Source of the DNA: Candidatus Woesearchaeota archaeon
Lineage (GTDB): Archaea; Nanobdellota; Nanobdellia; Woesearchaeales; 21-14-0-10-32-9
Length of the DNA stretch: 33,477 nt
Direction: 5' to 3'
NCBI GenBank assembly: GCA_020854775.1
Contig: JAHKLZ010000004.1
Span: forward strand, 1 to 33,477
A model generated the notes under the pieces. That model was not told the origin of the DNA and did not search any database. It worked only from the letters and a program-made list of their open reading frames with translations. The position numbers and the translations under genes are program-made. Each line of letters opens with the position of its first letter. Position 1 is the first letter of the stretch. Of this stretch, positions 12,370-33,477 are shown one piece after another.

Positions 12370-15300
12370 TTGAAAAAAGAAAGTAAAAAAAATACAACTC
12401 TAAATAAAAACAAACAAATAACTTTAACCCTAATAATTCTATCATTAATAATCTTATTCACAACCACAACAAACGCACAAACAAACCTAGAAGATTGTAA
12501 CGCAGAAGGAGGAATCTGGTGTGTGACTTCAGGAACTAACGGATTTTGTACTCAAGGTGGTGATGATGTTACTTGTAAAGTTTCTACAAGTCAAAACGTA
12601 ACACTTAGTCAAACACAAGGCGTTTATAATAGTAATAATCCAAAAATTTTTGATTTTAATGAATTAATAATAGAAGAAAATATTATATTGCAATTTTTTA
12701 ATGCGCCATATAGTAATAATGTACTTTATTCTGCAACTTCAGCTAATGAACCTTCTTCAGTTCGACGAACAGGAGCGTGGTATAAGTCTCCAAATACTTT
12801 ATCTGCTTCAAGAGGAGGTTCAGGAGGAAGAGGAGGAGTAGGTGGTAATGAAGATAATAGATTTGGCGGAGGCGGTGCTGCAGGAGCAGCAGGCGGAAAA
12901 ATAGGAATACACGGAGGTACTGCTAGTGGATTTTCAGGATCTATAGGTAGTAGATGGAGAGGAACTCAAGCAGGAAATGGTTATATTGGTGGAAAAGCAG
13001 GAGGCTTCGTGGTTTTAAATTTAAACAAATTAGTACTAAATGGTATTATTTCTGTTGATGGTGAAGATGGTCGAGATGGTCAAGATGGAGCAGATACTTC
13101 AGGCAGTAGAAGATATGGTGGTCAAGGAGGAGGTCCAGGATCAGGTGGTGGTGGTGCTGGAGAAATAAAAATTAATTTAGCAGATATAAGTACAGGTAGT
13201 CAAGGTAAAATTACGGCGATAGGTGGCGCTGGAGGATCTGGTGGAAAAGGAGGATCTGGTAATGGTGATCGTTTTGGTGGTGGTGGTGGCGCAGGGGGTG
13301 GTGGCGCTGGAGGAATAATATTATTTAGTTTCACAGGTGAAAATCCTGATTTATTTCAATTACCGCCTAATTTTTGTGAAGGAGGATCATCAGGTAGTCC
13401 AGGAGATCCAGGAGCTGATAGAGGTGGTGCGTTACCAGGAACTGTAGGATTAGGAGGTCCAGGAGGCATATGTAATCAACAAGTTTTGGAATGGAACCCT
13501 GACAACATTCCAGGATTAACAGATGAACAAAAAAGAATGATGATGTATGAGTACTGTAACACAGGCGGAACTAACGCGGATTCAGATGGAGACGGATTAC
13601 CAGACATGGCTGATCCTGATTGTTACGGAATGAATCATCAAGACCAAGCAGCATTCTTCATGGGTTGGGATTCAAGCATAAGAACTTATTATCCAAACAT
13701 TAACAATTATCCAGATACAGACATTGCTTGGTTTAATCCTTCAGCTAGTGATGGAAACGACTTGGTATGTGGAGATAATAAATTAAGAATAGGAAGTTGT
13801 AGTTGTAGCGTAACAACTTACAACGAAAATCAATTTAATTCTTGTAGTTACGACCAATACGCGGGTTATGATTATGGATGCGCAACAGACATGTCATGTT
13901 ATGGAGATAGTTACTGTGTGCCTAATGGTTGTGCTCCAGGATCGCCTCCTTTTTGCTCAGTAGATTATAATAATGAATGCGTATTCAGTGAATATGATGC
14001 GAGCGAGTATTGTTTTGATAAAGATGAAACTGAGTGTATTAATGATTGGTACTGCGAACCAATCTATGGTGTATATAACACTGAAACAAAGAGTTTTCCA
14101 CATGTATTTTCTAGTGCTGAATGTAACGGCGCTTCAATTCCAGGTACTAACACTAATTCTTGCAATTGGAACACACAAAATATAGAATATAATGACTTAG
14201 GCTATATAACTCCTGACGGATTATTTGTATGTTTAGATAATTCCAGAAACTTTGTTAAACTAGAAGGAGGATTAAGAAATGAACCACCTGTTAGTGCTCC
14301 ATTTAGAAATTATACGTGGCGCGAAGCATCTTTACACCCTGGAATATTAATGTACGGATATGACACGATGTTCGTATCTAATTATGAAGAATGGTTCTAT
14401 TGTGATCCTTATAACGAAGGAAAATTTGGTGAAAACAATATAAGTTTATTTAACACTTTTCCAAGCCCAGACAGTCTTACTAATCCAATGTGTACAGATA
14501 CAATATTTAGTTTTAACTTTTTTTCTAATGTAGAAGATTGTGATTATGAAGTAGGAGAAATAGCTGAATGTTATGAAGAATACTATGATGCGTCTGAAGG
14601 ATTCGTGTTCTGTCCTAAAAGCAGTGATGGAGAAATATTAAGACATGACTTAGGAGCCTCTGATGAATTCAGAGATCAATGTGGACTTTGTGAAGTAAAA
14701 ATAGGAGAAGACGAATGGACATCACTATTTAATTACTTACAATCATTAGCAAATGAGGACCTAGAACATTATTGTATAAGATTCCCTTACGATCCTATTT
14801 GTGATGAAGAAACAGGAGCTAGCGGAGAAGGAGATAGCAACATTATTCCTCAAGATGATTGTATTTCACCTGAGAACTGCTTAGGTGACTCTATAGATAC
14901 AACGATTAGCTGTGAAGCAATTCATTTAAGCTTAAATTTTAACTATCCTAGTTCAGACGATACTAAGGTTTGTGATTTAAACACTCAATATTGTAGAAAC
15001 GGAGAATTAGTAAACTCAGATGATGGCGCTTGTTGTTTAGGTCAAAATGCTTACTGTGAAAACTTTGAACAAGGAATGTGCTTAGAAATAGGAGGAAAAA
15101 TTTATTCTGAACAAGCTAACGAAATCTGTTTAGGAGTAACAATAGGTACTGATTGTTGCTTAGGAAGAGTAACATTATCTCCAGAAACAATACTAGCAAG
15201 CTACGTAAGAAACCAATCATACATTTGTTATCAAGACGTAGGAAAAGGATTCTTTAAAGAATGCTGTGGCTCAGTAACAGGTTGCTTTAACGAAAATAAC

Positions 15301-17982
15301 AATATGCTCACAAAAAGATATGTATTATCACGATACGTAATGGACGGAGGCCCAACTCATTCATTAATACACTTTGACACAGTTAATATTAGAGGACTAT
15401 TACAAGTTCTAGGACACGCTAATAATAAATATGACAACGCTAATCACTTAGGATTCGCACTTAGTAGCGTAGGATATGACCTTACTAATTTTGACTATTT
15501 ACAATTTGACTTCGCTACAAACAACAAAGACTTCTTGAAAGACCTAGTAATAGTTGACACACAAGGAAAAAACATATCATTTGATTTAAACGAACTAATA
15601 ACAGTAGATAATAAGAGATGGCAACACGTAATAATAAATCTAAATCAAGGCCACGCCATTACTCAACCAGGATTCTCAGAAGGAATAATAAAGGGTGATG
15701 AAGAACAAATAGATTTTGTACCTATGGATGGAAGTTCTACTTCAACAAACGAATTTGATAGAACTAAAGCTTACAAAATAGTACTAACATTTGACATACC
15801 TCAAGGAAGCACAATAGATTTCTTAATAGATAACGTGTTCTTAAGATCTTATTCAGATAATAATTTAGACATAAATTCTGAGCCTAGGTTCTGTTCAGGT
15901 AACTGGGGAACTTGGTTAGAAAACCTTGACGGTCCTAACGCGGATAATGACTCAGGATTCTTTGAAGGCTTTGAACCTAGAAGCGAGGATATGATAATTA
16001 ATGAGTACGGTCCTTACATGGATGGGTGTAACGGAGTAATAAGTTATGGTTGGACAGGAAGTGCTTGTTGTGGAGACGACACATTACCAGATAATGAAGG
16101 AGAATATTGGGTTGACAGAGAAGGTATTTGTTGGAATGGAAAAACGGTGCGTCACGATGATACAATCGCTAATACTATAACAAAGAATTATGGAACAGAA
16201 TCCATACAAGAAAAAGGTTTGTTGTTCTTTGGAGGCGAACCAATCCTGTGCGAAGTAAATCCTGATCAATATGATGATATTAATTTTATTTTTGACGGTG
16301 AAACCAATGAGGAATACACATTCAAAGACGCATTAGAAAACGCAGAAATAGTTGAACCTTTCACGATTAGAGGAAGATGGATATGTCAAAGAGATGAAGG
16401 ATGGATTAAAATAGATGATTTTAACAGAGTATCATTAATGGCTGCGTTCATGCTAGAAATAGTAAATAAATCAACCACGAAGAACTTATTCACAATAAGT
16501 TGCGGAGACATGGAGAAAACAATTAACTATGACGAACCAGTAAATAAAGACTTACTAGGATCATTCTGCTTACTAAGAAGAGGATCTAACAATAACTTAA
16601 TAGGATTACCACCAGGCTTAGAAGTCAGCGGAGACATCTACGTAGCTTTTGAATCTAAGAATCTTAGGGATCCAATTGTTAATAACTTAGATAGCATTCT
16701 TAACTTCCCAGCACTAGCAGGCTATACGTGGGATTGTTCAAACGTTCCTACTAATCCAAATCATAATGAATTCTTCACTAAGTGCGAATCAAATGAGAAC
16801 AAACCAATGCTTTACTATAACAAACCATTCAACATGTTCATACTATCTTACAAGAACTTAGAACAAGGATTCTTTGCAAGGATGTGGGATTCATTAGTTA
16901 ATTTTTTCAAAAAATTATTTGGAACCATAGAAACAGATGTTACAAGCATTAATTTGAATCTTCTTAACTTCACAGAATACAAAGACACATCAGAAGTATT
17001 CATATCAAAACAAAATAACAGATCAATCATAGGTAAATCAGAAGACATAGGAGGCATAAAGAAAATAAGAGTAGAATACAATAATTTAACTTCGAACGTC
17101 GCTTTCTTAGTAGATATGATTAAGACTAAATACAACGTAGAAAACGCGTTATGGATTCCTCAAAATTACACTCAAATAATATTCGTAGAAATCAGAGGAT
17201 CACAACGTGAAAACCTAAAACTTAATGAATTAACATCACTACTAAGATTAAAAGACATACCTGACGCGAGCGTGGACTTCGGACTTGGAAGAAACTGTTC
17301 AATAAGAATAGATGATGAAGATTCAAATTGGTTCTCCGGAACAAAAAATTATGTTTATCTACAAAAAGAAGCAAATAATCCTGATTTATGTGGGGAAGCA
17401 ATACTTCTTGAATGTGCGGATGGCGAATTATCTAGTGAAGAAAATGAATTTTATTCTAATTGCATCCAAAAACACGAAGTATCCTTGTTTAAAAAACTAG
17501 ATGAAAATAAAGAACTTATTTCAACTCAGTTTATTGAAGAAAACTCAGAATTTTCACACAATATAAAATTATATGAAGAACAAAATGATGTTTGGCATGC
17601 TTTTGTTAATTGGACTAATGATGAAAAATTTTATGAAAACACTCAGCTAAATTTTGTTATTAATCAAAATATAAATATAACTATGAATTACTTATCAAAT
17701 CCTGATCTAAAAAAATTAACTATTGAAACAGAACCTTGGTTCGGAGGAGAAGTTATCTTAAATCAAGAACAAGACATGTCTCACTACAAATTAAGTGAAA
17801 CAAACGGATATTTAGAATTAATTCTTCCTGAAGGATTTGAAGTAAATCTTTCTGCACAAGGAAAAAATAATCATGAATTCTCACATTGGTGGATTGATTC
17901 AAATGCTTACGCATATTCTCCATACACATTTAATATGCCTTCACAAAACAAAGTAATAGGTGCGGTTTTCATAGAAAATTAA
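12370..17982 (+). CDS. Giant secreted Gly-rich and Cys-rich adhesin-like protein
   Basis: The 1870-residue protein starts at TTG with a signal peptide (basic MKKESKKNTTLNKNK, hydrophobic core, cut near TNAQ-TN at 36-37). Residues 148-366 are strongly glycine-rich. A calcium-loop sequence DSDGDGLPDMADPD follows (404-417), then a long cysteine-rich region to about 990. A jelly-roll-like segment (about 1000-1165, with FDYLQFDFATNNK and IDFLIDNVFL) recalls carbohydrate-binding modules, but this is tentative. The C-terminus (FSHWWIDSNAYAYSPYTFNM, then VIGAVF) matches the InlB B-repeat pattern of surface adhesins. No C-terminal anchor is visible, so it is released or held by partners. Codon use shifts to T-ending codons right after the signal peptide, unlike the flanking genes. 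A role in adhesion is inference. Confidence 0.8.
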   Translation: MKKESKKNTTLNKNKQITLTLIILSLIILFTTTTNAQTNLEDCNAEGGIWCVTSGTNGFCTQGGDDVTCKVSTSQNVTLSQTQGVYNSNNPKIFDFNELIIEENIILQFFNAPYSNNVLYSATSANEPSSVRRTGAWYKSPNTLSASRGGSGGRGGVGGNEDNRFGGGGAAGAAGGKIGIHGGTASGFSGSIGSRWRGTQAGNGYIGGKAGGFVVLNLNKLVLNGIISVDGEDGRDGQDGADTSGSRRYGGQGGGPGSGGGGAGEIKINLADISTGSQGKITAIGGAGGSGGKGGSGNGDRFGGGGGAGGGGAGGIILFSFTGENPDLFQLPPNFCEGGSSGSPGDPGADRGGALPGTVGLGGPGGICNQQVLEWNPDNIPGLTDEQKRMMMYEYCNTGGTNADSDGDGLPDMADPDCYGMNHQDQAAFFMGWDSSIRTYYPNINNYPDTDIAWFNPSASDGNDLVCGDNKLRIGSCSCSVTTYNENQFNSCSYDQYAGYDYGCATDMSCYGDSYCVPNGCAPGSPPFCSVDYNNECVFSEYDASEYCFDKDETECINDWYCEPIYGVYNTETKSFPHVFSSAECNGASIPGTNTNSCNWNTQNIEYNDLGYITPDGLFVCLDNSRNFVKLEGGLRNEPPVSAPFRNYTWREASLHPGILMYGYDTMFVSNYEEWFYCDPYNEGKFGENNISLFNTFPSPDSLTNPMCTDTIFSFNFFSNVEDCDYEVGEIAECYEEYYDASEGFVFCPKSSDGEILRHDLGASDEFRDQCGLCEVKIGEDEWTSLFNYLQSLANEDLEHYCIRFPYDPICDEETGASGEGDSNIIPQDDCISPENCLGDSIDTTISCEAIHLSLNFNYPSSDDTKVCDLNTQYCRNGELVNSDDGACCLGQNAYCENFEQGMCLEIGGKIYSEQANEICLGVTIGTDCCLGRVTLSPETILASYVRNQSYICYQDVGKGFFKECCGSVTGCFNENNNMLTKRYVLSRYVMDGGPTHSLIHFDTVNIRGLLQVLGHANNKYDNANHLGFALSSVGYDLTNFDYLQFDFATNNKDFLKDLVIVDTQGKNISFDLNELITVDNKRWQHVIINLNQGHAITQPGFSEGIIKGDEEQIDFVPMDGSSTSTNEFDRTKAYKIVLTFDIPQGSTIDFLIDNVFLRSYSDNNLDINSEPRFCSGNWGTWLENLDGPNADNDSGFFEGFEPRSEDMIINEYGPYMDGCNGVISYGWTGSACCGDDTLPDNEGEYWVDREGICWNGKTVRHDDTIANTITKNYGTESIQEKGLLFFGGEPILCEVNPDQYDDINFIFDGETNEEYTFKDALENAEIVEPFTIRGRWICQRDEGWIKIDDFNRVSLMAAFMLEIVNKSTTKNLFTISCGDMEKTINYDEPVNKDLLGSFCLLRRGSNNNLIGLPPGLEVSGDIYVAFESKNLRDPIVNNLDSILNFPALAGYTWDCSNVPTNPNHNEFFTKCESNENKPMLYYNKPFNMFILSYKNLEQGFFARMWDSLVNFFKKLFGTIETDVTSINLNLLNFTEYKDTSEVFISKQNNRSIIGKSEDIGGIKKIRVEYNNLTSNVAFLVDMIKTKYNVENALWIPQNYTQIIFVEIRGSQRENLKLNELTSLLRLKDIPDASVDFGLGRNCSIRIDDEDSNWFSGTKNYVYLQKEANNPDLCGEAILLECADGELSSEENEFYSNCIQKHEVSLFKKLDENKELISTQFIEENSEFSHNIKLYEEQNDVWHAFVNWTNDEKFYENTQLNFVINQNINITMNYLSNPDLKKLTIETEPWFGGEVILNQEQDMSHYKLSETNGYLELILPEGFEVNLSAQGKNNHEFSHWWIDSNAYAYSPYTFNMPSQNKVIGAVFIEN
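12811..13470 (+). repeat. Glycine-rich low-complexity region
   Basis: About 220 codons of GGX-type sequence (RGGSGGRGGVGG, GGGGAGGGGAGG and similar) with two interruptions of ordinary beta-strand sequence (VVLNLNKLVLNGIISVDG and EIKINLADIS). It is reminiscent of Gly-rich beta-helix or autoaggregating surface domains. Confidence 0.7.
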
Positions 17983-18024: not shown

Positions 18025-18046
18025 CATAAATCTCTTTATGAATCAT

Positions 18047-18898
18047 ATGAGAAAAAACAAGTTAGCAGGTATTTACTACGCGGGAGCACCCACACTTATC
18101 AATAATCAAATAAAAAAAGCGTTCTTATCAGAAAAAGGACCGGGGGACTTACCAACAAAACCAAATTCTAAGACGCACGTAAAAGGAGCAATCGTGCCTT
18201 TATTCTCATATGACATAAGCGGTCCTTGCGCGGCTTGGTCATACAAACAAATAGCAGAAGAAAAAATGCCTGACGTATTCATAATAATAGGACATTCAAG
18301 TCAAGAATCAGGCATAGCTATGGAACCATACGAAACACCCTACGGAATAATAAGAACGGATCAAGCATTAGCAAGAGAAATAATAAAAAAAGGAAACATA
18401 AAACACAAAGAACCAATCTTTGACAGAGACGAATTCATCGAATCACAACTACCTTTCTTACAATACATATACGACTCGAACATAGAAAAAATAAAAATAC
18501 TACCAATACTAATAAGTCACGACGTAGAACTAAAAAAATTAGCAGTAGACATAAAAGAAACACTGCTAGAAACAAACAAGACCGCGACTATAATAGTGCC
18601 AACGAATATGACTAGTTACGGAGCGAACCACTCATACATACCATTCGAGAAAGACGCACACAAAAAAGTTTACGAATTAGACCAAGGAGCCTTAGACTTA
18701 ATACAACAAAACCAACCATTAGACTACCTAAAATACGTAGATGAAAAAGGAATGAACACAAACAATTACTTAGGAATAACACTTCTAATGCTAATACTTA
18801 AACCAAGAAAATCATTACTAGAACAATACTACACAACAGCTGACTTAAACAATGACACAAAGAACTTTATAAGCTTCGCAAGCCTAGTATTCAAATAA
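18047..18898 (+). CDS. MEMO-like protein lacking the metal-binding histidines
   Basis: The 283-residue protein follows the MEMO1/AmmeMemoRadiSam-B plan: N-terminal KLAGIYYAG, GAIVPLFSYDISGPCAAWSY, VFIIIGHSSQ, YETPYGIIRTD, and ESQLPFLQYIY. In canonical members the second block is PHAGYxYSGPxAA, the third ends GPSH, and the fifth is EHSLEVQLPFL. Here the first His is Leu (L52), the His of GPSH is Ser, and the EHS His is Glu (E129). The SSDF-H and CGYG regions near the C-terminus are also replaced (VPTNMTSYG, NNYLGITLLM). Metal-dependent chemistry is therefore unlikely and a structural or binding role more likely. It lies alone between giant surface genes with its own TATA box. A longer start at 18038 adds MNH. 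Confidence 0.8.
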   Translation: MRKNKLAGIYYAGAPTLINNQIKKAFLSEKGPGDLPTKPNSKTHVKGAIVPLFSYDISGPCAAWSYKQIAEEKMPDVFIIIGHSSQESGIAMEPYETPYGIIRTDQALAREIIKKGNIKHKEPIFDRDEFIESQLPFLQYIYDSNIEKIKILPILISHDVELKKLAVDIKETLLETNKTATIIVPTNMTSYGANHSYIPFEKDAHKKVYELDQGALDLIQQNQPLDYLKYVDEKGMNTNNYLGITLLMLILKPRKSLLEQYYTTADLNNDTKNFISFASLVFK

Positions 18899-18958: not shown

Positions 18959-21900
18959 ATGAAAAAAGAGGCTAACAAGAAGGCACAATTCACAGTCTTC
19001 GTAATATTAGGATTCATGATGCTAGTAGTAATGGGATTCTTATTATTGTTAATCAACGTAGCATCAGAGAATTCAACTCAACAAGAAGCAAGAAGACTAG
19101 TAAATGATTACTTAGACTCAGAATCAATAAATTATTATGTTTACACGTGCTTAGAATCCGCGACGAACAAAGCAGTAGATGAATTAATGATACAAGGAGG
19201 AATATACTACGCGGACCAAGAAGAAGAATACGGATTAGAAGCAGAAACAACGAAGCACATACAACTAGACATAACATTTGAAGAAACAGGAAGCTCACCA
19301 ATAACAAAACAAACAAATGTGTCATACGGATTAACAAAAATAAATCCTTGCCCAGTAATAGAATACTCAATACCAGAATTTCCACTACACAGAACTAGAC
19401 TAAGCAGTTTATACAACACATATAGAAGATTCTTATCATGCTCAAGGGACTTAGAAGCAAACAAGGATTACTCAGGATTCTTCGGATATAATCAATTAAC
19501 CAGACTTTGTTATCATGGAAGCGAAAATCAATTAGATGGATCAAACTTTATAAGTCCTTGCAAACACAACGCGATGATATCAACAAATAACGTATCAATA
19601 GAATCAAAACTAAAAAACAGAATACAAGACTTACTAAACGAATGCATAGATTTTGAATACATAGGAAAAATACAAGGACATAACATAACAGTGAATGAAT
19701 CAGAAAGAGAACTAAAAATAATACTAAACAGAAATACTCTATCAGTAGAAGCAACATATCCATTCAGAGTAAGTCTAAGAAACAGAAACCCAGTACTAGT
19801 AAGACACAGCTTTAATTACGCATCTAATTTAAGAGTAACAAAACTTCATAACTTCGCGATAATGTTATTATTCGCAGACGCAAGCTTACACAACTTCGAC
19901 ATAAAAAAAGATTATAATAATCCATTCTTTCACCAAATAATACCTAATTTAAAAAATTATTACGATTCTTATTTCGACGTGGAAGTAATAGAATTCTTAG
20001 ACACATTACATAATCACAAGTATGATCGAGTACTAATCATAAAAGACAGAGCATCATACATAGGAGGAAGACCTTTAACGTTCGCTACAGCGATACAAAA
20101 CAGAAACCCTGCCTTGGACTTAATACATCAATACATATTAGAATTAAACGCGGATTACGACATATTCGTACAAGAAGGAGAAGGATTTCAAATAATACCA
20201 GAAGGATACGACCCAGATGACAGAGCATTAAGATATGAATACAGCGGGTGGAAAGAAACATACGACGAAATATGCCACGTAATGCTAGGATCATTAAATT
20301 GTCAAACAATACCTATAACAGATGATTTCATTAAATTAACAGACTCAGAAGAATTCCAACAAACAAGAAGAATAGTAAGTTATCCAGAAACAACATCGAC
20401 AGACATAGGATTACACGTAGTAAGAGTAACAATATACGACAAAGAAGAATTATACGATTATCAAGACGTAAAAATATTCGTGTTCAAACAACCAGAAGCA
20501 GAAATAGACCTAGAAAAACCATATCCTCCAATGGACATACCAGATAATACAATAAGCATAGAAGACCCAGCTTGGTTCAACGCAAAAATAAACAACACAG
20601 AATTCTACGAAACAAGCGAAACATACGACTCTTTAGATATGCAAATAATAAAACTTAACTGGCTACTAACCGATTCGGAAGGAAACGAAATAATAAACGA
20701 AACACACGATGAATTAAACACACCCATAAACGAAATACAAGAATTCAGATTACCAAGACAAGACTACACAATACAAACCATAAAAAGATTAAACTTAACA
20801 AACATAGGAAACTATGCATTAACAGCTTTCTTCACAGTGAAAGTACAAGACGGACAAGGAGGAACAATAGGAATATTTTCAAATGATGCAACTTTTGATT
20901 TCGAAGCAAAACAATGCATACCTCACAGAGCAACACAACCAAGCTATCCATACTCAACAACTAATTTTCAAATAGGACAAAAAATGTACGGAGAAGGATT
21001 CGGAGCAAATCACACTTGTTGCACAGATAACTACGAATATCAAGGAGAAGACAAAAAATGTTATGAAGCAACATGGTACGGAGAATTCCAAAAATTAAAA
21101 CAAAAAGCACAAGACTTAATGAAAACAAACATGTTAACTAATTACGAAGGAACATCCAGTTTAACATTTAATCCGAACCATCCTGCTCAAAATAGAATAA
21201 ATTCAATATACAAATTAGTTTTTGAAAGAAACTGCGACGGAGAAAGAGGAAACATATGTGCGGGAGACGCAACAGCCACACTCACAATACAAGGAACTCC
21301 TTGCTCATACAACTCAAACTTACTAGAACAATGTAATGGGCCACCAATACAAAACATGAATCCTTCAAGTATTCCTATGCTTTGTCAAGCATACACAACA
21401 ACTACTTTAGCAAACCCTATAAGTTTTGAGAAAATATTCACACAAGAAGGAACAGGAGCGTGCTCAACAACTAATTCATGCGCACAAAAAATGGACGCGT
21501 TCTACAGATTAGTACCAGCAAACTACGGAAACTACTTATGCACACAATTTTATTGCGAAAACGGTGAATGCACAAGATCATTCAGTAATTATTGTAGCTG
21601 TGACACAAACTGCGGAGCAATATGCGATTCAACAACAACATTTCCACAATGGTCAGAAACAACTTGTAGATATTCTTGCAATGAAAATTGCAATTATAAT
21701 TGGCAAAGAACAATGTGTAATGTGAATGATCCAATCACTCAAGCAGGAAGATATTGTTACAGAAACACTGATAAATATTGTTATTACAACGTGGGTTGTA
21801 CAACATCAGGAAGAACCCATAGAAAAGGAGATTATTGCGAAGAAGAAACATTATTCGAAGTAAGCTTATCAGAGTGCATAGTAGATGATGAATTAGTAAA

Positions 21901-22424: not shown

Positions 22425-22429
22425 GGGTG
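22425..22429 (+). promoter_or_regulatory. Shine-Dalgarno of the third giant gene
   Basis: GGGTG five bases before the ATG at 22435. It favours that ATG over the in-frame GTG at 22429, which lies inside this site. Confidence 0.55.
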
Positions 22430-22434
22430 TGTTC

Positions 22435-25400
22435 ATGAACAAAAATAACTTCTCAAAAACAACTATAAAGGTAGTGCTAGCACTAATCATAATATCAACA
22501 ATAATACTAACAACTAATGAAGCAAAAGCACAAACAAATCAATGGTGCGTATATGAAGATACGGACGGATTATTATATTATGCATCTATTCCTAGTGATA
22601 TAAGTAGCGAAGATTGTACTGGAACTACGAATCAAGGCGTAGTTATATCTACTGATAATCCTGATTTGGGATGTTGTTGCTTAGATCCTATCAAACATTG
22701 GCCTCAAGAATTATGTGCTAAACACGAAACGATTTGGAAACTTGATTCTGATTCAAGTCAATGTGATCAAATATGTGGCGCATATACCTTTTTTCAAGTA
22801 ACACTAACACTAGATTTTAACCAATTCTTAGTTCAAAATGATGAACTAATGACTATGTCTGGTTCATACACAATAGGAGGAAGAACAGGAACTTTTAACG
22901 TTGATGATGATTCATTTACTGTGCCTAATATACCTGAAGGAACTCATGACATAAATATTGTTGTAAATTTCGAATCAGCATCAGGATTTAAAGGAACAAG
23001 TTGCTCAGGAAGCTTAAATCAACAAATAATTGATGAAAACAAAGCATTCATTATTTCAATAGTAAGTTGTACATTAACAAGTGGACTAAGTGGCGAATCA
23101 GGAACAGGACAAAAATATAATTTAACTTTGACAACAACATACACGGGATTAGGAACACAAACACCAACCAGTCCATCAATAACATATTCATTAAAAAACA
23201 CGGAGAATATTGTTGTAAAAACAGGAATACTAACTCAAGATAATAAAATAACAGATATCTCAGAAGGAACTTATAATTTAGAACTAATAACGAACTTCAG
23301 ATTATCAAATAATCATTATTCTTGCAAAGGCGAAAAAAACAACATACAAATAGAAAAAAACGAAGAAGAATCAATAACGCTCACATGTACACTAACAGGA
23401 AATTATGATTGTGAAGAAGACGAAACATGTACTCTAATCTGCGAAGAAGGATACGAATTATCAGGAAATGATTGCGTGCCTGAAGACGGAGACCCGACAA
23501 CACCAAGTGATTGTATACCTCAATGGAGCATCCAATGGGAATATCCTCTTAATCAATGCGGAACAGGAACAATCATAGTAACTAACACTTGTGGGATGTC
23601 TAACCAAGAATTAGCTGATGCAGGAGTTCCACAATCAGTAGAACCTGTTCTTTGCCCAGAAGATCCATCAGACCCAGAAGACTTAGAAACTTGCGGAGAT
23701 GGAGAATTACAAGATCATGAAGAATGTGAATACAGAGGACCAAACGGGCCTATATTCAGAAACGGAAATACATGCGCTGAATACTATAATAATCCTAATC
23801 AAGTAGGTAACTTAATATGTACAAATTATTGTAAAATAGAAACTTCTTTCTGCGACGTTTGTCCTACAATGCCATCAGGATGTTCATCAAGCCTTCAATG
23901 TAATCAATGCAGTGTGTGCGCAGAAGCACCACTATGTAAACCAGTTTGTTCAATAGAAAGATTAAACGATTTCAGAATAAACGCGCCTATAATCCCTATT
24001 TTTAACGAAGTAATAGGACTAAGATTCTCATGGACAATAGATAATCATTGCAATTCAACAATAAAAATAAGAAGATGCATATCACAAGAAGCAAACACTA
24101 ATTGTGCTCCAGCAATTACAGGAACAGAACTAACATCAATCCCCGCAACTAATTCACCATACTTAGATACGGCTTTTGAACCTCAACACGGAGGAAAAGA
24201 TGTTTGTTATCAATTAACATACAGAGAAAGAATAGAAGGACAACTAGTAACAAAACAAACAGAAATAGTATGTCAAAAATTACCACATTTTGAGTGTCTA
24301 AATAACGGAGGCGCAAACTTTTGTTACGACACAATAACTCCTGCTAGTTGCAATAGTAACACAGGACAATTAAATTTAGGAAGCGAATGTACAAACGCGG
24401 TTTGCGTGAATCCATCAATAATGAATGGACAAATAATAAACGGAGAAGCATGGTGCCTAAACGTAGAAATCTGTGATAGTTGCAGTGGTCCCTTCGGAGT
24501 TTATTCATATCAAAGCGAAACCTTTGACGCGGACTGCGATTTCAGAACAACCCTTGCTTGTTTCAGAGAAGATTATTCTAATAGACAAACAATAAAAGGA
24601 AAATACAATCCTTGCTCAGACATACAAAGTTGTTATGATTACAAAACAGAATATACTTGCGAACAAAACACTTGCGGAACAGTAGGACTTAACGATTGCG
24701 AATGGAACCCATTAACAACCAATAACGAATTAGGAATAGGAGTGTGCAGACCAATAAACGAAGAAGAAAGAGATTGTAAAGCATGCGACGAAAACCACTT
24801 ATTTGGAGAACACTGCCCAGAATACTTATGTAACTTATACGGTGATTGTTACTACAACGCGGAACCAGAAAAAACAAGTAACGCATTCATAGTCAATCAA
24901 TATTACTGCAACAACAAATACGAAGTAGGATGTGAAACCTACAATGATAAAGAAGAATGCGAAGGAAACTCAGAATACGAACTAGATGTTAGTTATTCAT
25001 TATTAATATCAGGAAGTTTTGCTAGAATAAGCGGAACACACAACATACTTGCCGAATCAAACGATCCTTTAACCTTAAAAAAATGTGTTTGGAACGGAGA
25101 AACTTGTGTGAGAGACGCTTCATACCAAAAAGAATACAGAACACAAGAAAACATGCATTATTTAGAATCAGACTGTGAAAATAATAAACAAAGCATTGAA
25201 TGCTTAACAAATTTTGAAAACCCAAATACAACTATTTACATAGGCGCAGAAGAAATGCAAAATAAGACTTATTCCTTATGGCAATTAACACACGTACTAG
25301 GAATAAACACATCAGAACAAGTCAAACACACATATTTCTCATTAAATAAAACAAATAATGAATATCCTAAAATGGTTCAACAAATATTTAGGAATAATGT

Positions 25401-26580
25401 AAATAATCTAGAATTAGATAATCCAACTCAGTATTTTTTAAGATATTATTCTATGGATGAGTCAAACAACTTAGAACAAATAAAAACTAAAAGAATAATG
25501 TTATTACCAGAACTAAACATTTCAATAAGTCATAACATAGTAGGCGCGTATTTAGAAGAAGCACAACAAGTAGTATCAAATCTAACAGTGACTACAACAA
25601 CACAAACACCTAGCTACGAATTCTTATGCAAAGCAGAACTATTACTAGAAGACCAAGATGAATACTTACCAATAGGAGAAAAAATAACAAGAACCTCGAA
25701 CGACGGACAAATAATTTGGGATTCATACAAATCATTAGTAGATGGACAATACTTTTTTAACGTGACTTGCTGGGATGAATACCAAAGAGGATACCACGAA
25801 ATAAAACCAATATTAATATCAATGGATGACACAATAACTGATCCAACACCAAGAGGCGTAACACTACCACGAAATCCTGATTTAGAAGTATCAATAAGAA
25901 CAAAAGAAAACGCGGATTGCGAATTAATCTTCGAAAAAAACGTATCAAACGGAGAAAATCATGAATTAGGTGATAGTATAAATTTAATAGCCTCACAAGG
26001 TGGAAAATTACACACGAATAACATTGACGCGTCAATCGAAGGAGTATACATACTAAGACCAAAATGCACATTCACAGGAACAATACCTCAAGGAGTGCCT
26101 GATAACGGAGAATTCATAGGAAACAACGGAGACTTAGTATACTTCGCAATAGACAAAACACCGCCTCAACTAAGACTAATAGATGTAAACAAAACAATCT
26201 ACAACGAAGACCAAGAACCAGTAGATTACACTAATTCAACAATTGCAAAGAACAGCATAGAATTATTATTTGAATGCAACAAAACAATACCTGGACTAGT
26301 ACAAGGACCAAGAGATTTATCATCACCATGCGCACAACCAATAACTTACGAAATAATACACAACAAAGGCTTCGGAGATGAATTAAAAGAAACAAACACA
26401 GTAAGCTTCGGACAAGGATTCACAGTAACAGCACCAACAACATTCACAAACATATACTTAAACGTTACAGTAAGTGACTTAGTAGGAAACACAAAGAATC
26501 ATAGGATATTCCTAAACCTAAGAAGCGACGCATTACAAGGAATGCCACAAATCATAATATACGACGCGGGACAATCCTAA
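22435..26580 (+). CDS. Giant secreted Cys-rich surface protein
   Basis: The 1381-residue protein has a signal peptide (MNKNNFSKTTIKVVLALIII, cut near AKAQ-TN at 33). Two beta-sandwich-like segments (about 115-200 and 205-310) contain NIPEGTHDINIVVNF and DISEGTYNLELITNF. A Cys-rich block follows, including CGDGELQDHEECEYRG (from residue 420), a DUF4215-like pattern seen in archaeal and bacterial surface proteins. Further Cys clusters run to about 930. Near the C-terminus IDKTPPQLRLIDVNK resembles Ig-like or bacterial 'DTTPP' domains. There is no C-terminal anchor. The ATG at 22435 is preferred to GTG 22429 because GGGTG sits just upstream. The fourth giant gene begins 24 bases after its stop, so they are co-transcribed. 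The function is presumably structural or adhesive. Confidence 0.8.
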   Translation: MNKNNFSKTTIKVVLALIIISTIILTTNEAKAQTNQWCVYEDTDGLLYYASIPSDISSEDCTGTTNQGVVISTDNPDLGCCCLDPIKHWPQELCAKHETIWKLDSDSSQCDQICGAYTFFQVTLTLDFNQFLVQNDELMTMSGSYTIGGRTGTFNVDDDSFTVPNIPEGTHDINIVVNFESASGFKGTSCSGSLNQQIIDENKAFIISIVSCTLTSGLSGESGTGQKYNLTLTTTYTGLGTQTPTSPSITYSLKNTENIVVKTGILTQDNKITDISEGTYNLELITNFRLSNNHYSCKGEKNNIQIEKNEEESITLTCTLTGNYDCEEDETCTLICEEGYELSGNDCVPEDGDPTTPSDCIPQWSIQWEYPLNQCGTGTIIVTNTCGMSNQELADAGVPQSVEPVLCPEDPSDPEDLETCGDGELQDHEECEYRGPNGPIFRNGNTCAEYYNNPNQVGNLICTNYCKIETSFCDVCPTMPSGCSSSLQCNQCSVCAEAPLCKPVCSIERLNDFRINAPIIPIFNEVIGLRFSWTIDNHCNSTIKIRRCISQEANTNCAPAITGTELTSIPATNSPYLDTAFEPQHGGKDVCYQLTYRERIEGQLVTKQTEIVCQKLPHFECLNNGGANFCYDTITPASCNSNTGQLNLGSECTNAVCVNPSIMNGQIINGEAWCLNVEICDSCSGPFGVYSYQSETFDADCDFRTTLACFREDYSNRQTIKGKYNPCSDIQSCYDYKTEYTCEQNTCGTVGLNDCEWNPLTTNNELGIGVCRPINEEERDCKACDENHLFGEHCPEYLCNLYGDCYYNAEPEKTSNAFIVNQYYCNNKYEVGCETYNDKEECEGNSEYELDVSYSLLISGSFARISGTHNILAESNDPLTLKKCVWNGETCVRDASYQKEYRTQENMHYLESDCENNKQSIECLTNFENPNTTIYIGAEEMQNKTYSLWQLTHVLGINTSEQVKHTYFSLNKTNNEYPKMVQQIFRNNVNNLELDNPTQYFLRYYSMDESNNLEQIKTKRIMLLPELNISISHNIVGAYLEEAQQVVSNLTVTTTTQTPSYEFLCKAELLLEDQDEYLPIGEKITRTSNDGQIIWDSYKSLVDGQYFFNVTCWDEYQRGYHEIKPILISMDDTITDPTPRGVTLPRNPDLEVSIRTKENADCELIFEKNVSNGENHELGDSINLIASQGGKLHTNNIDASIEGVYILRPKCTFTGTIPQGVPDNGEFIGNNGDLVYFAIDKTPPQLRLIDVNKTIYNEDQEPVDYTNSTIAKNSIELLFECNKTIPGLVQGPRDLSSPCAQPITYEIIHNKGFGDELKETNTVSFGQGFTVTAPTTFTNIYLNVTVSDLVGNTKNHRIFLNLRSDALQGMPQIIIYDAGQS

Positions 26581-26604: not shown

Positions 26605-29600
26605 ATGAAGAAATTACTAATAGTATTAGTACTAATAATGACATTACTAATACAAACAAACGCATTAACACCGGATCAATGGTATGTTAAAGGACCTAAA
26701 GCATTAGATTTATCAGGAGATGAAATAGAAGATTCTCTAGTTATAACTTTTTTTCAACTAAAAAGAGAAGAATATGACATATCAAGACCAACAATAAATG
26801 TAACGTTTGACGAAGAAGTAGAAATAATAAATTTTAATTTAATAAGACTTGACGGATTATCCACAGATAATTGGTGGTTAAACAACAAACAAGTAGGACC
26901 AGTAGAACCAGAAAATTATTCTTCATTACCAAACCCTGACGAAATATGGTCAGCTACTGAAGAACAAATAACAAGAATACAAAGCAACTCAAACTCATAC
27001 AGACCTGATCATATATTATCGAACGGAATATATTTATTTAGAGTACAAGGATTCAACGAACCAAACCTAACAATAGATGTAAGAACAGTATTCAAAATAA
27101 ATGTTTCAGCAATGAACTTCTGGGTTATAGATCCAAGCACAACACAAATACAAAAACCAGACTTCGCAGTATCAAACACAACAACTTTTAATTTAACAAT
27201 AGAAACAGAAAGACAAGCCACGGGGTGCGCATACGTAACTAACAGACCAAACAATTTAGGAATAGCATATTCTAACGCGCTAAATAACCCAAATCAAATA
27301 TTCATAAATACAACACAACACAACACAACTTTCAAAATAGAAATAACAGACGGACCAGGATTCGCATACGAAAACGGATTCAAACAATTATACGTTATAT
27401 GTGAAGAAAGCACTGAGCCTCCAAGATACTCCTACAAAAACATAAGATTCTCAGTCATAACAGAACCACCAACAATAAACATAACAGCGTTCCCAGAAAC
27501 AATTATAGATGCAACGAATCCATCAAGCAACATACAAATAGAAACAAATCACTTCACAACATGCACAATTGATTACAACGACGCAGAACTTCAAAACAAC
27601 CAAAAACCAACATATTCACTAAAACCAACTTTAGAATTTACAAGCGAATCAGCATACAAAACAATTCATAATGACATAATACAATTTCAATCATCACCAG
27701 CACTCATAGAATTTGAATTCACAATAAACTGCACGAACCTAGCAGGATTATCAAATACATCAACACAAAACATAACAATAAAATATGATGACCTAAGAAA
27801 ATTTAATTTTACTTCACCCATAGGAACATTAAACACAAAAAAAATAAACGTTTCAGGACTATACATAAGAAGAAACGCGAATTGTGAAGCAATAATAAAT
27901 GATGAACAAACAAAACACGCACTCACATTTAAAGGACTACAAAATAACGGTTACTACAAATACGAAAAAGAAATACAAACAACCCTAGAAGACGGAAACC
28001 ACAAAGTATACGTAAAATGTGATTACATGCAATTTCATGACGAACAATCATTCATAATAAACACTAGACCAATGAGTTTGTGGATAACAAATCCTATAAC
28101 AACTGAGATAAACAAACCTTTCTTCGCAGTATCAACTCAGAACGAAATAGAAATAGAAATAGAAACAGAAAGAAATATTAACGAATGCAGATACGGATTA
28201 TTCCTACAAGGAGGAAGCACAGCAACACCAACACCGAGTCAACTACCAGGACTATATAATTTCTTCACAAACACCCTAGAAAAAGAATCAAACAAAGAAC
28301 TAAAAATAACAAGCTTTGATATGAATTCAGGAACGAATCTTCTAAATATACACGGAATACAACTATATCCTTTACACATAGTATGCAACGTATCAGATCC
28401 ACTACCCGGACAAAGCACATACTTTTATGAAAGACTAGGATTCAGAAAAATAACAACGACACCAAAAATAGAAATAACTGCTAGTCCATCAAAAATATGG
28501 AGCTCAGACTTCACATCATCAACAATAACACTAACAACTCCAGGACAACAAACAACATGCGAAATAACACCCCGTTCTAGTCAAGAAGCCATACACACAA
28601 TAGATGAAAAATTTCAAGGACTAACAACATCACCATCAAATTATGAAGAAACAAGAACAGGAACAATACAATTCACAGCTGTACCATCAGCCAACATAAA
28701 TTTAGAAGTAGAATGCACAAACCTAGCAGGACTAAAAAACACAACGACGTTTAACATAGAAATAGCTCACGGAGACTACTTAGAAATAAAAAAACCAGAA
28801 ATAGAAGGATCAAACAAAATAAACATAGAAGCATTATTTTCATCACAAAACGCGGAATGCGAAGCATGGTTCAATGAAGCAATAACAACAAAAAGAACAT
28901 TAAACAAACAAAGCACGAATCAACAAACAGGACTAACAAGTTATACACTAAACAACGTAGACACAGGATTACCCGACGGACAACACACAATAACTGTTAA
29001 ATGTGACAACGCACAAGAAAACAAAGAATTCAGCATAGATATGACTCCGCCAACAAACATAGGAATAACACTAAACAATGAATACGCAAAAACATGCACG
29101 AACTTCGAAGACGAAAACAAATTCGAAGTAGCATTCACATCAAAAGACGCAACAGGAGTAACAAAATACGAATATGAATTAGTCGCAGAACCAAACCAAC
29201 CAGTAACATTCCCAAGACTAACAGGAACAATTAACTGCGAAGATAACTGTGACGAAAGCAGTATTAACGAAGTCATAACACAAATAAATATACCTGCACA
29301 AATAATAACATACTTTACACAAGGAAGCCCAAACACGGATTATAACGAAGTAAACGCGAAAATAAGAGTTAAAGCAACAGACAAATTCAATAAAGTAAGC
29401 ACGTGGCAAGAAAAAATAATAACATTCACAACTAACGAACACATAACGTGCTACTCATCACTAAACATATGGGTAACAACACCAACCAACACAAACGTAA
29501 TAAAACCAGACTTCGCAGTATCAAGAACACCACAAGGAAACCTAGCTCTAGAAACACAAAGACCAGTAGAAGCATGCATATACGATTATAGCTCATTAAC

Positions 29601-32600
29601 ACAAAATATAAAACAAAAATACCAAGAATACGTAGACGCAGGAAACGCAATACAACCAAATCAACAAGGACAAATAATAATACCTGACTTTAATTTCGCA
29701 ACAACAACTCCTTTAATAAGACATCATTTAAACCCAGAATTAAGTCTTAGAAAAATAGAAGTAATATGCAAAGAAACAAACGAAGAATACTCTTTCAAAA
29801 GAATATACTTCAACCATTTAACAACTAATCCTGACATAACAGCTCAAGTAAATCCAGAAATAGTAAGAAACAAAGCAGTACCACAATCAGAAGTAACAAT
29901 AACAATAAACAACGGACCAACACAAGGAGCAGTATGCTTCCTAGAATTTCAAGGAACACAAAGTCATTACCCAACACACAATTTATTATCACAAACAAAT
30001 TTTAACGCAATACAAAATTATTCAACAAACATAAAAGACACACTAATATTCTCAACAGCTATTCCAATAAGAAACTTAGATTTCACAGTTAATTGTACGA
30101 ACTTAGCAGGACTATCAACAAAAACACAACCATTAAACATAAAAACTAATTTATCAGACGAATTATTCATAGAAATAAGATCACCAATACGAAACAATTG
30201 GTACTCAAACTCACTAAACGTAGACATACTATTCTCAGGATTTGACAAAACATGCAACGCGTGGTTCAACAGCGAAACCACTAAACAACCACTAACAAGA
30301 ACAGGAACAATACAAGGACTACAAAACTATCAAAGACTAATAACAATAACTAATTTAGAAGAAGGACAAAACACACTAAGAGTACAATGCGAAGGAATGG
30401 AAACAACAGAAACAACCACTTTCTACAAAGATAACCAACCACCACACAACTTACAACTAGAACTACTAAACGAAAAAGAATACACTTGCTCACATTCACT
30501 AATACAAGGAGAAATATCAGCACAAGACGACGGCTCAGGAATAAACAGATACGAAATAGAACTAGAATACACAGGAAACAACAACGCACAAAGCTTTGAA
30601 AAAGTAACAGAAACAATATACCAAGATGGAACCGCGATATTCCAAATACCAGTACCATCAAAAACACTAAGTTACCTAGCAAGTAACGTTTTAAGCCAAG
30701 TACCAGCGAAACTAACACTAAAAGCATACGATGAAGTAGGACTCTCAGCAACAAAAACAAAAAACATACAAATAACAACGAACGCTTACGCGGAATGCCT
30801 AGACTCAATAAAAATGTGGGTGGAAGAACCAGCAAACCACAGCATAATAAGACCTGACTTCGCAATGTCAGATAAAGACATATTTAACCTAACACTAAGA
30901 ACAGAACACCCAGTAGAAGAATGTAAATACGACAGAGACATAAATCCTGCAATATCAATAGAAAACATGTATGACAACTTAAGATACACATTCAAACAAG
31001 AAACACAAGACAAATACGTAATAGAAAACCTAAACTTCGCAGAAGCAACCACATATTATTCGCAAGTAATAAAACACGGAATAACATTCAGAAAAATAGC
31101 GGTACTATGCAAACAAAGAGTTGAACTAACACAAGGACAATACTATTATGACTACGCATACAAAGAAATATACTTCAACGTAATAAAAGAACCACCACAA
31201 ATAAGAACAAACGCGTTCCCAGAAGTAGTAGTAGACCACATATTTAACCCAGCATCAGAACTCACAATAAACATACTAAACGGAAACACACAAGCATCCG
31301 CGTGCAGAATAGAACTAGATGACTTACCAGAAGAATTAGGAGGTGGAAGCAACCCAGAATATTCTTATAACATGTACCCCATGGATTTCACACACATAAA
31401 TAATTATTCAACACAAATAAAAGACATAATAAAATTTGCAAGTTATCCAGCACCATACAATTTCACGCTAAACATAACATGCACTAACCTAATAGGAAGA
31501 TCAAGCAAAACCACCCAAAAAATAAAAGTAGACTACGACGATAAATTAAACTTTAAACTAATAATGCCGCCATCAAAATACCTAAACACAAAAACAATGG
31601 ATTTCACAGGAATATACGTACAACCAGACGAAAATTGCTACGTTAATTACACAACTACGCAACCACAAACACTACTTTATACAAACGAACAAAACATCCT
31701 AGGATATTACTTATACGAAAAAAAAGAACTAAACACAGGACTAGAAGACGGAACACACACAATACTAGGCTCATGCGAAGGACTAACACAAGAACAATCA
31801 TACCAAGGACAAATAAGAATAGACACAGTACCTCCTTACAATTTAACAATAAACACGGACTCAAACACATACACATGCTCAACAGAAAGAATACAAGCAA
31901 CACTAAAAGCACAAGACGAATTATCAGGAATAAGCCACTACGAATACAACATAACTCATGTATCAACAGAACCAGCATTCAACCCAATAACAAGATCAAC
32001 AAGCACAGGAACACTAAACGAAAGAATAACAGCACTACAAGTACTAGAAGGACAAAAAATAAGAATAACAGCGAAAGCATTCGATAACGCAGGAAACTCA
32101 ATAACACAAACAAAAGAACTAACCATATCCAACAATTCATTAACAGCCTGCGACGTAACACCACCAATAATAAGAGTAAACACAACACAAAAACAAGACA
32201 AAACATGGGACGTACTAGTAAATTGCTTCGACGCACACAGCGGATGCAAACCACAATACACATACAGCGTACACACAAACATATCAGAACAATGCAAATT
32301 TGACAACACAAAACCACTAGGAGAACTATTCAGAATAACAGATTCTTCAAAATACTGCGCGAAAGTATGCGACAACAACAATAACTGCGCACAAAAAACA
32401 GACCTACTAGAAACAGCACAACCACAACACTGCTTCAACACAATAAAAGACGGAGACGAAACAGACACCGACTGCGGAGGATCTTGCTTAGCATGCGAAG
32501 TAAACAAAAAATGCATAATTAATTCAGATTGTAAATCAAACTATTGCTTATTAGGAACATGCACGGTAACAAGCTGCACAGACGGAATACGAAACGGACT

Positions 32601-33477
32601 AGAAGTAGGAATAGACTGCGGACAAGCATCAGGATGCGGAAAATGCCCATTAGAATCAACATGTGACCACGACGTAGACTGCGAATCAGGAAACTGCTTA
32701 AACGGAACTTGTAATCCACCAGCGTGTGATAATAACAAAAAAGACGGAGACGAAACAGACATAGACTGCGGAGGATCAATTTGTGAACCTTGCAAACTAG
32801 GAAATAAATGCTTAGAAAACAAAGACTGCGAATCAAACTATTGCTCAAACGGAACATGCAGAGACCCATCAACACAAGACCCAACAATAACAAGACCAAC
32901 AACAAAAAAAGAAACAAACACACCAGGACTAATAATGCTAATACTAGGAGTAGTACTAGGAGGCGTCGGAGGAACATTACTATACTTAGAAACGCAGAAA
33001 AAAACACTTCAAGGACAAGAACAACAAACACAAACAATGAAACAAGCAATATCCTTAGACGTACCAAAAGTATCAACCTTGAATAACGCAAAAAAAACAA
33101 GAGAACTAACACCAGACGAAATAAGACTAAGAAAACAAGCATGGGAACGAGCACTAAAACTCAAAAGCAAAAAAAGAGAAGACACACTAAGCGCGTTTGA
33201 CAAAGAAGAACAAACAAACGAAACAAAAACAGAAACAAAGAAAGAAGAAACAACAGAAATAAAAGAAGAAAAAGAAAAAGAAAAAATATTCACAAAAGAA
33301 GACAAAGCAAAAGAAGCAGTAGACGAATACGTAGACATACTAACACTAAAAGGAAAAGAAACAGACGACTTCGAAAAACTCAAAAAAACAACGCAGAACA
33401 CAGAAAAAGGAACAACGAAACCAACAACACAAAAAATAACGAACAAAAAAAATTCAACTAATCCAACAACTAAAAAA
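26605..33477 (+). CDS. Giant repeat surface protein with C-terminal anchor (runs off right edge)
   Basis: An open frame of 2291 codons reaches the last base with no stop, so the end is missing. The product starts with a signal peptide (MKKLLIVLVLIMTLLIQTNA). After about 150 residues come four repeats, the first about 320 and the others about 450-460 residues. Each has an aromatic W-V/I-x2-P-x5-IxKPDFAVS start, a CTNLAG block, an LEDGxHxxxxxC block, and in copies 2-4 a TPPxN domain. Three Cys modules of the DGDETDxDCGG type follow (from residue 1943). Next are a membrane helix (about 2109-2128, LIMLILGVVLGGVGGTLLYL) and a Lys/Glu/Thr-rich cytoplasmic tail. Many NxT/S sites suggest glycosylation. 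It is a type I membrane-anchored surface protein, co-transcribed with the gene before it. A stalk or adhesin role is inferred. Confidence 0.85.
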   Translation, partial: MKKLLIVLVLIMTLLIQTNALTPDQWYVKGPKALDLSGDEIEDSLVITFFQLKREEYDISRPTINVTFDEEVEIINFNLIRLDGLSTDNWWLNNKQVGPVEPENYSSLPNPDEIWSATEEQITRIQSNSNSYRPDHILSNGIYLFRVQGFNEPNLTIDVRTVFKINVSAMNFWVIDPSTTQIQKPDFAVSNTTTFNLTIETERQATGCAYVTNRPNNLGIAYSNALNNPNQIFINTTQHNTTFKIEITDGPGFAYENGFKQLYVICEESTEPPRYSYKNIRFSVITEPPTINITAFPETIIDATNPSSNIQIETNHFTTCTIDYNDAELQNNQKPTYSLKPTLEFTSESAYKTIHNDIIQFQSSPALIEFEFTINCTNLAGLSNTSTQNITIKYDDLRKFNFTSPIGTLNTKKINVSGLYIRRNANCEAIINDEQTKHALTFKGLQNNGYYKYEKEIQTTLEDGNHKVYVKCDYMQFHDEQSFIINTRPMSLWITNPITTEINKPFFAVSTQNEIEIEIETERNINECRYGLFLQGGSTATPTPSQLPGLYNFFTNTLEKESNKELKITSFDMNSGTNLLNIHGIQLYPLHIVCNVSDPLPGQSTYFYERLGFRKITTTPKIEITASPSKIWSSDFTSSTITLTTPGQQTTCEITPRSSQEAIHTIDEKFQGLTTSPSNYEETRTGTIQFTAVPSANINLEVECTNLAGLKNTTTFNIEIAHGDYLEIKKPEIEGSNKINIEALFSSQNAECEAWFNEAITTKRTLNKQSTNQQTGLTSYTLNNVDTGLPDGQHTITVKCDNAQENKEFSIDMTPPTNIGITLNNEYAKTCTNFEDENKFEVAFTSKDATGVTKYEYELVAEPNQPVTFPRLTGTINCEDNCDESSINEVITQINIPAQIITYFTQGSPNTDYNEVNAKIRVKATDKFNKVSTWQEKIITFTTNEHITCYSSLNIWVTTPTNTNVIKPDFAVSRTPQGNLALETQRPVEACIYDYSSLTQNIKQKYQEYVDAGNAIQPNQQGQIIIPDFNFATTTPLIRHHLNPELSLRKIEVICKETNEEYSFKRIYFNHLTTNPDITAQVNPEIVRNKAVPQSEVTITINNGPTQGAVCFLEFQGTQSHYPTHNLLSQTNFNAIQNYSTNIKDTLIFSTAIPIRNLDFTVNCTNLAGLSTKTQPLNIKTNLSDELFIEIRSPIRNNWYSNSLNVDILFSGFDKTCNAWFNSETTKQPLTRTGTIQGLQNYQRLITITNLEEGQNTLRVQCEGMETTETTTFYKDNQPPHNLQLELLNEKEYTCSHSLIQGEISAQDDGSGINRYEIELEYTGNNNAQSFEKVTETIYQDGTAIFQIPVPSKTLSYLASNVLSQVPAKLTLKAYDEVGLSATKTKNIQITTNAYAECLDSIKMWVEEPANHSIIRPDFAMSDKDIFNLTLRTEHPVEECKYDRDINPAISIENMYDNLRYTFKQETQDKYVIENLNFAEATTYYSQVIKHGITFRKIAVLCKQRVELTQGQYYYDYAYKEIYFNVIKEPPQIRTNAFPEVVVDHIFNPASELTINILNGNTQASACRIELDDLPEELGGGSNPEYSYNMYPMDFTHINNYSTQIKDIIKFASYPAPYNFTLNITCTNLIGRSSKTTQKIKVDYDDKLNFKLIMPPSKYLNTKTMDFTGIYVQPDENCYVNYTTTQPQTLLYTNEQNILGYYLYEKKELNTGLEDGTHTILGSCEGLTQEQSYQGQIRIDTVPPYNLTINTDSNTYTCSTERIQATLKAQDELSGISHYEYNITHVSTEPAFNPITRSTSTGTLNERITALQVLEGQKIRITAKAFDNAGNSITQTKELTISNNSLTACDVTPPIIRVNTTQKQDKTWDVLVNCFDAHSGCKPQYTYSVHTNISEQCKFDNTKPLGELFRITDSSKYCAKVCDNNNNCAQKTDLLETAQPQHCFNTIKDGDETDTDCGGSCLACEVNKKCIINSDCKSNYCLLGTCTVTSCTDGIRNGLEVGIDCGQASGCGKCPLESTCDHDVDCESGNCLNGTCNPPACDNNKKDGDETDIDCGGSICEPCKLGNKCLENKDCESNYCSNGTCRDPSTQDPTITRPTTKKETNTPGLIMLILGVVLGGVGGTLLYLETQKKTLQGQEQQTQTMKQAISLDVPKVSTLNNAKKTRELTPDEIRLRKQAWERALKLKSKKREDTLSAFDKEEQTNETKTETKKEETTEIKEEKEKEKIFTKEDKAKEAVDEYVDILTLKGKETDDFEKLKKTTQNTEKGTTKPTTQKITNKKNSTNPTTKK
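27118..32154 (+). repeat. Four large tandem protein repeats
   Basis: The W-x3-P...KPDFAVS motif starts at 27118, 28078, 29467 and 30814. The CTNLAG motif falls at 27730, 28714, 30094 and 31480 (CTNLIG in the last). Periods are 320, 463 and 449 codons by the first motif and 328, 460 and 462 by the second. Copy 1 lacks the final TPPxN domain present in copies 2-4. DNA identity is low, so the duplication is old and maintained at protein level. Confidence 0.8.
32431..32859 (+). repeat. Three Cys-rich DGDETDxDCGG modules
   Basis: Modules at 32431-32562, 32575-32712 and 32725-32859 each hold an acidic loop (DGDETDTDCGG, EVGIDCG, DGDETDIDCGG), a CxxC or CGKC, and an end of the form DCxSxxCxxGTC. 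Eight or so cysteines per 45 residues predict compact disulfide-bonded knots just outside the membrane anchor. Confidence 0.8.

Follow-up and report, generated by a model that had tools for sequence, protein, structure and literature searches.

Predicted giant surface proteins at the head of a conserved gene cluster with pilin-like members in a Woesearchaeota archaeon

Woesearchaeota are tiny, probably symbiotic archaea, and the genome considered here encodes four giant proteins in a row on one strand. What might such proteins build, and do they act on their own? The window, that is the whole stretch of DNA analysed (33477 bases), is the entire contig C4, one of the 58 contigs that make up a 1.18 Mb genome. 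Its four giant open reading frames (A, B, C and D; 1870, 1114, 1383 and >2291 codons), all on the plus strand, had been singled out in a preliminary description as consecutive genes for surface proteins. The ORFs are real, their length and their conservation in relatives ruling out chance frames, and order and strand are as described, but a fifth gene, of the Memo family, sits between the first two giants. The genes concerned are:

11656-12267, plus strand: RNase P component 3-like gene (NCBIfam RNaseP3Mthb, 3.9e-10), a housekeeping gene 5' of A
12370-17982, plus strand: giant A, 1870 aa, TTG start; predicted secreted, Cys-rich
18038-18898, plus strand: Memo-family gene, 286 aa (Pfam Memo, 3e-27), between A and B
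18959-22303, plus strand: giant B, 1114 aa; pilin-like N-terminus, beta/Ig-like middle, Cys-rich C-terminus
22429-26580, plus strand: giant C, 1383 aa from GTG, or 1381 from the ATG at 22435; predicted secreted, Cys-rich
26605->33477, plus strand: giant D, >2291 aa, open; signal peptide, Ig-like stalk, DCGG Cys motifs, C-terminal helix and tail

The intergenic gaps from A through Memo, B and C to D measure 24-125 bases, so that these genes could share a single transcript. Codon adaptation is uninformative for expression here, codon usage differing strongly between the genes of the two strands; the cause is probably the strong GC and AT skew across the window, with its strand switch near 8990. 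Giants A-D gave no Pfam match above cut-off, no usable NCBIfam match and no PHROGs match. Membrane helices were predicted throughout from hydropathy alone.

Are the genes kept together elsewhere? Within the same genus and family the order RNase P3-like gene, A, Memo, B, C, D recurs with identical order and strand. Profiles for each gene were built from loci of the own genus and family and some from the wider order (here always the taxonomic order of the window's genome), and were applied to 20 further loci picked solely for having B. C directly follows B in 19 of the 20, the one exception being a contig end; in 16 a separate or fused D comes after C, the remaining loci being cut; and A lies upstream in 10. 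As a pattern rather than an estimate of rates, the counts having been made among the matches listed and including some genomes that supplied the profiles, the best listed place per genome has A and B on a shared contig in 81 genomes and within 6 kb (<=6 kb) in 76, with A upstream on the same strand in 76/76; B and C share a contig in 91 genomes and are close in 89 (same order and strand in 89/89), and A and C share one in 73 and are close in 69 (69/69). The conserved A-B-C order spans dozens of families. The preliminary description had held that a lack of synteny in relatives would tell against it; order and strand turn out to be conserved across the order. The RNase P3-like gene was found upstream of A in many relatives. 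Such constant housekeeping neighbours rule out a mobile island, and the term "island", used earlier, is best replaced by that of a fixed chromosomal locus adjoining the RNase P component 3-like gene. Between A and B, the Memo gene occurs in 12 loci, which belong to the own family and to several others; most distant families lack it.

Gene order apart, comparison brings out fusions. C and D form one protein in L051, L081, L093, L096, L099, L104-L106, L109, L110 and L112, and in many distant families this single protein has ~1650-2170 residues. Families with the fusion have a shorter A (~750-1100 residues) and a shorter B (~400 residues), from which it follows that the giant sizes in the window arose by lineage-specific expansion of an older locus. 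In a sample of 371 genomes of the phylum the profile of A matched 143 genomes, none of the matches listed lying outside the order; that of C matched 146, with few and weak matches beyond it.

The secretion and anchoring topology was likewise read from comparison. Giants A and C had been called free. It is correct that they have no other membrane helix (hydropathy), but each starts with a signal-like helix (residues 16-34 in A) and is predicted to be secreted. Their relatives look alike, with an N-terminal signal-like helix and rarely any other membrane helix (hydropathy and alignments). The parts of these two proteins are:

12802-13494, plus strand: Gly-rich part of A (maximum of 41 Gly in 100 residues), without conservation in most relatives
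15202-17259, plus strand: conserved Cys/Trp-rich region of A, residues 945-1630, ending at a conserved W..LT..LR motif
17830-17973, plus strand: InlB B-repeat-like C-terminus of A (Pfam Flg_new_2, 23.2 bits, below the cut-off of 23.6)
23926-26178, plus strand: disulfide-rich core of C, residues 500-1250, with >20 invariant cysteines in 14 genomes

The Cys/Trp-rich region has invariant cysteines and tryptophans in 17 relatives. Inspected by eye, residues ~1010-1160 look like a carbohydrate-binding beta sandwich. An AF2 model of part of A is of low confidence (mean pLDDT 54.6), and the fragment gave only weak Foldseek matches, among them agarases and the carbohydrate-binding module CBM35; only a hint of a lectin role for A may be taken from this. 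A membrane-anchored thioredoxin-like protein (Pfam 7.2e-7) is encoded at 4434-4841 of the window (plus strand), with relatives near B in L072 and L073, and may be connected with the formation of disulfides in the Cys-rich giants. In several distant genomes a radical SAM enzyme, which might modify a surface peptide, is encoded near A (L043:17837-19288; Pfam 1.1e-12; relatives in L047, L049 and L050).

The features of D are:

27109-27927, plus strand: stalk repeat unit 1
28069-28905, plus strand: stalk repeat unit 2
29458-30297, plus strand: stalk repeat unit 3
30805-31662, plus strand: stalk repeat unit 4
32926-32982, plus strand: C-terminal membrane helix (hydropathy), kept in all complete D proteins examined
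32983-33477, plus strand: Lys/Glu-rich cytosolic tail with recurring [DE]xFxxLxxM-like motifs (nine tails aligned)

The four units measure ~280 residues each and are spaced 320-463 residues apart. There is one in the congener G001 (L034) and zero to three in other relatives, and with this varying number D looks like a stalk of adjustable length. Complete D proteins in relatives have a signal-like helix, the C-terminal membrane helix and a Lys/Glu-rich tail, in which the [DE]xFxxLxxM motifs recur at varying positions; these motifs suggest a binding partner in the cytoplasm. Here D is truncated by the contig end. The congener's D stops ~35 residues past the matching region, so that what this D lacks is probably just the last part of its cytosolic tail. 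The surface stalk earlier attributed to the four proteins together fits D (four Ig-like units, then a membrane helix), and the fusion of C and D in many families supports a joint structure.

Giant B begins differently:

18974-19120, plus strand: pilin-like N-terminal helix of B (KKAQFTVFVILG..., residues 6-54)

This strongly hydrophobic helix directly follows KKAQ. In an alignment Gln10 of B is invariant in 16 relatives, as are many Cys, Gly and Asp residues. The anchoring first described for B (pilin-like, N-terminal) and for D (C-terminal helix) is kept across relatives by hydropathy and alignment. B lacks the Glu5 of typical pilins, and so do two small proteins encoded downstream, E and F. 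Some minor pilins are also without Glu5; its absence from B, E and F nevertheless weakens the pilin reading. The AF2 model of B (mean pLDDT 57.6) opens with a long pair of N-terminal helices, after which come beta-rich domains; for these the best Foldseek matches were generic Ig/cadherin stacks with low TM-scores. No solved structure related to B by sequence was found. The AF2 folds (pLDDT 55-58) are of low confidence and are treated as provisional. The B profile matched 243 of the 371 genomes, short relatives of its N-terminus only included, and almost every one of its closest named relatives carries the label of a Woesearchaeota or Nanoarchaeota archaeon. A second, compact B-like pilin (254 aa) is encoded in the own genome on C19 (L150:9562-13060), followed by a 905-residue secreted protein; this is a possible paralogous mini-locus.

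Where does the cluster end? Where relatives have longer contigs, a conserved series of small genes comes directly after D; every one of them has a short, positively charged start and a single hydrophobic helix. The first are E (~165 aa), F (~340 aa), G (~165 aa) and H (~165 aa), present in 21, 22, 22 and 23, respectively, of the 24 genomes whose flanks were examined. Beyond H come further short single-helix membrane genes (families c7, c6, c9, c8 and c13), until OB-fold-like and RadA-like neighbours are reached; these two were recognised by eye in their sequences. The complete chromosome G020 has the row unbroken. Judged from this gene order, the four giants are the upstream end of a larger conserved cluster and not the whole system. 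E and F were searched for in the window's own genome and not found; an assembly gap is the simplest reading, the contig ending inside D, and gene loss may be the alternative.

The pilin-like genes are the more widespread part. F, matched in 283 of the 371 genomes, is phylum-wide, whereas hardly any match to A or C lay outside the order. The complete genome G092 belongs to another order; its row consists of a B-like gene, a gene for a secreted protein of 1143 residues, E, F, one for a secreted protein of 1019 residues, G, H and an S-layer-like gene. Together with the distribution of F, this row indicates that the pilin-like core is older than the giants.

The readings of the cluster part over the starts of these small proteins. 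We favour a type-IV-pilus-like module of minor pilins and adhesins that would display the giant adhesins for attachment, and consider that it may equally well prove right or wrong. The main rival, which we regard as rather unlikely, is a static membrane-anchored envelope complex without a pilus: KK[GA]Q would then mark signal anchors that stay uncleaved, and the giants would be carried on the outside by a scaffold of the many single-helix proteins (B, E-H and those further downstream). The comparison of starts bears on both. Among B, E, F, G and H proteins that have such a helix (clusters c1, c2, c3, c4 and c11), 76 of 100 carry [KR][GAS]Q ahead of the first one, against 8 of 92 other ORFs with an N-terminal helix from the same loci. 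By this motif enrichment several subunits appear to carry class III (prepilin) signals, and the strong excess of Gln after Gly, Ala or Ser speaks against plain anchors. Many downstream families, on the other hand, have KK[GA] without the Gln, as a scaffold of anchors would allow, and the missing Glu5 of B, E and F points the same way. True class III pilins again speak for a pilus: unmistakable ones (KKGQxALEFLxTYGW) adjoin B in L036, L077 and L087, while in L043 the genes upstream of A include one like an A24 prepilin peptidase (Pfam 4.3e-6). No VirB11/T2SSE-type ATPase or TadC was seen inside the cluster in relatives, and D is a conventional C-terminally anchored protein; both facts suit the static complex.

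For the pilus-like module, the machinery would have to be supplied from elsewhere. The own genome has one A24 prepilin peptidase (PF01478, 8.3e-17, G000:C5:54543) and four T2SSE-type ATPases. On C17, C5 and C18 an ATPase is followed by a TadC-like gene, and class III or similar pilins lie near the ATPase on C17 and C18 (both by reading the sequences). Processing, pilus assembly, filament formation and partner binding, as we infer them, would run as follows. B and E-H, with their class III-like signals, would be trimmed by the single A24 peptidase and then come together as a minor-pilin-like complex, which would sit either at the membrane or on the tip of a type IV filament that ATPase/TadC pairs from other loci would power. 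As a modular pilin, B would bear a large Ig-like, Cys-rich head; A and C would be disulfide-stabilised secreted adhesins carried by the complex. D, as a membrane-anchored Ig-like stalk, would connect C to the membrane and, via its tail, to the cytoplasm. Projecting past the S-layer, the complex would grip a partner cell or a surface. The giants probably form a large adhesive surface structure, and their use in host attachment is plausible.

Could the giants themselves be the S-layer, or a Woesearchaeota substitute for it? They are large, predicted secreted Ig-like proteins, one with a C-terminal membrane helix, and in G092 the S-layer-like gene stands just 3' of H. The own genome, however, encodes a separate S-layer protein of the Methanocaldococcus type (PF05124, a frame of ~733 aa) at C5:69008-71023, PF05124 matches occur in 54 of 60 relatives, and giants A-D had no PF05124 match in Pfam. 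We rejected this reading as extremely improbable.

Another reading is that the cluster encodes a pseudopilus-like secretion system, with the giants or effectors as its cargo. Five pilin-like proteins, one of them large, recall GspG-K of type II secretion, and some genomes have M23 peptidase- and amidase-like domains downstream; in G020 an M23 peptidase domain (1e-16) and a weak Amidase_3 match come after pilin-like starts (L111:7560-9578 and L111:10545-11516). The M23 catalytic motif is present in just 3 of 8 genomes, however, A, C and D have signal peptides of their own, and no outer-membrane pore is expected in a cell with an S-layer, which leaves this reading very improbable. A secreted muralytic machine was not adopted either, the M23 motif being unconserved.

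How new is such an arrangement? Makarova, Koonin and Albers (2016) described archaeal pilus loci in which minor pilins are accompanied by large proteins, some of them secreted, others Cys-bearing and anchored at the C-terminus (PMC4858521). The earlier statement that the giants belong to no described system therefore holds only in part, large secreted or C-terminally anchored proteins beside minor pilins being known from archaeal type IV pilus loci (PMC4858521) and the giants of the relatives preceding pilin-like genes. The likeness extends to a large secreted and a C-terminally anchored Cys protein beside minor-pilin-like genes, and to an ATPase and TadC that may serve pilins encoded elsewhere (PMC4858521). 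The cluster differs in having no ATPase or TadC, no DUF2341 (PilY1-like), four giants, a fixed order across the taxonomic order, and C-D fusions; neither DUF2341 nor a PilY1 C-terminal domain was found in the giants with Pfam, NCBIfam or PHROGs. Large adhesin-like proteins in archaeal pilus loci are thus already known; new by comparison are the four giants that head a cluster conserved across the order, with a pilin-like core that spans the phylum.

Bacteria are known to have modular pilins onto which adhesive domains are grafted (PMC8179133). Like PilB of Streptococcus sanguinis (PMC8179133), B combines a pilin-like N-terminus with a large grafted module and a proposed position at the filament tip; unlike PilB, it has a ~1000-residue Ig-like, Cys-rich module in which no vWA domain was found, and its processing is predicted. 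Bacterial PilY1 with FimU-PilVWXE is similar by analogy, a giant tip adhesin being encoded with about five minor pilins, but there is no detectable sequence relation, the present system is archaeal, and the membrane-anchored D has no counterpart. The giant repetitive adhesins of the SiiE type share an Ig-like repeat stalk, as a generic Foldseek similarity of B; anchoring and export are different and no homology is claimed. No description of Woesearchaeota surface or pilus clusters was found in the open-access library searched, most subscription papers and preprints lying outside it.

The same phylum includes Nanobdella aerobiophila and YN1, whose attachment organelle is a large envelope structure at the contact with the host (PMC11104419, PMC11420986). 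According to these two cryo-tomography papers of 2024, the proteins of the Nanobdellota organelle are unknown (PMC11104419, PMC11420986). The cluster (B, E-H and the giant surface proteins) might encode it, with a phylum-wide pilin-like core and with A, C and D as fast-evolving, lineage-specific host-binding parts. We think this quite unlikely. The organelle is known from other lineages of the phylum, while A and C were found almost solely in the order of the window's genome.

In the 2016 census the cognate pilins of some nanoarchaeal ATPases could not be found (PMC4858521). The locus, conserved order-wide, with hardly any annotation and with a pilin-like core that spans the phylum, offers concrete candidates for two questions: which proteins hold the host in DPANN archaea, and which pilins match some of the nanoarchaeal pilus ATPases. 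With the candidate proteins of the cluster both become directly testable.

Two further genes of the window, both on the minus strand, deserve mention. The contig end (1-675) cuts a protein whose start has repeated VGIGTTTPxxxLxVxG motifs, which resemble phage tail-fibre or large surface proteins. Archaea are a group without peptidoglycan, and the window encodes at 4863-5807 a lytic transglycosylase (SLT, Pfam 9.6e-16) with a signal-like N-terminus, which could hint at a bacterial partner or at DNA of bacterial origin.
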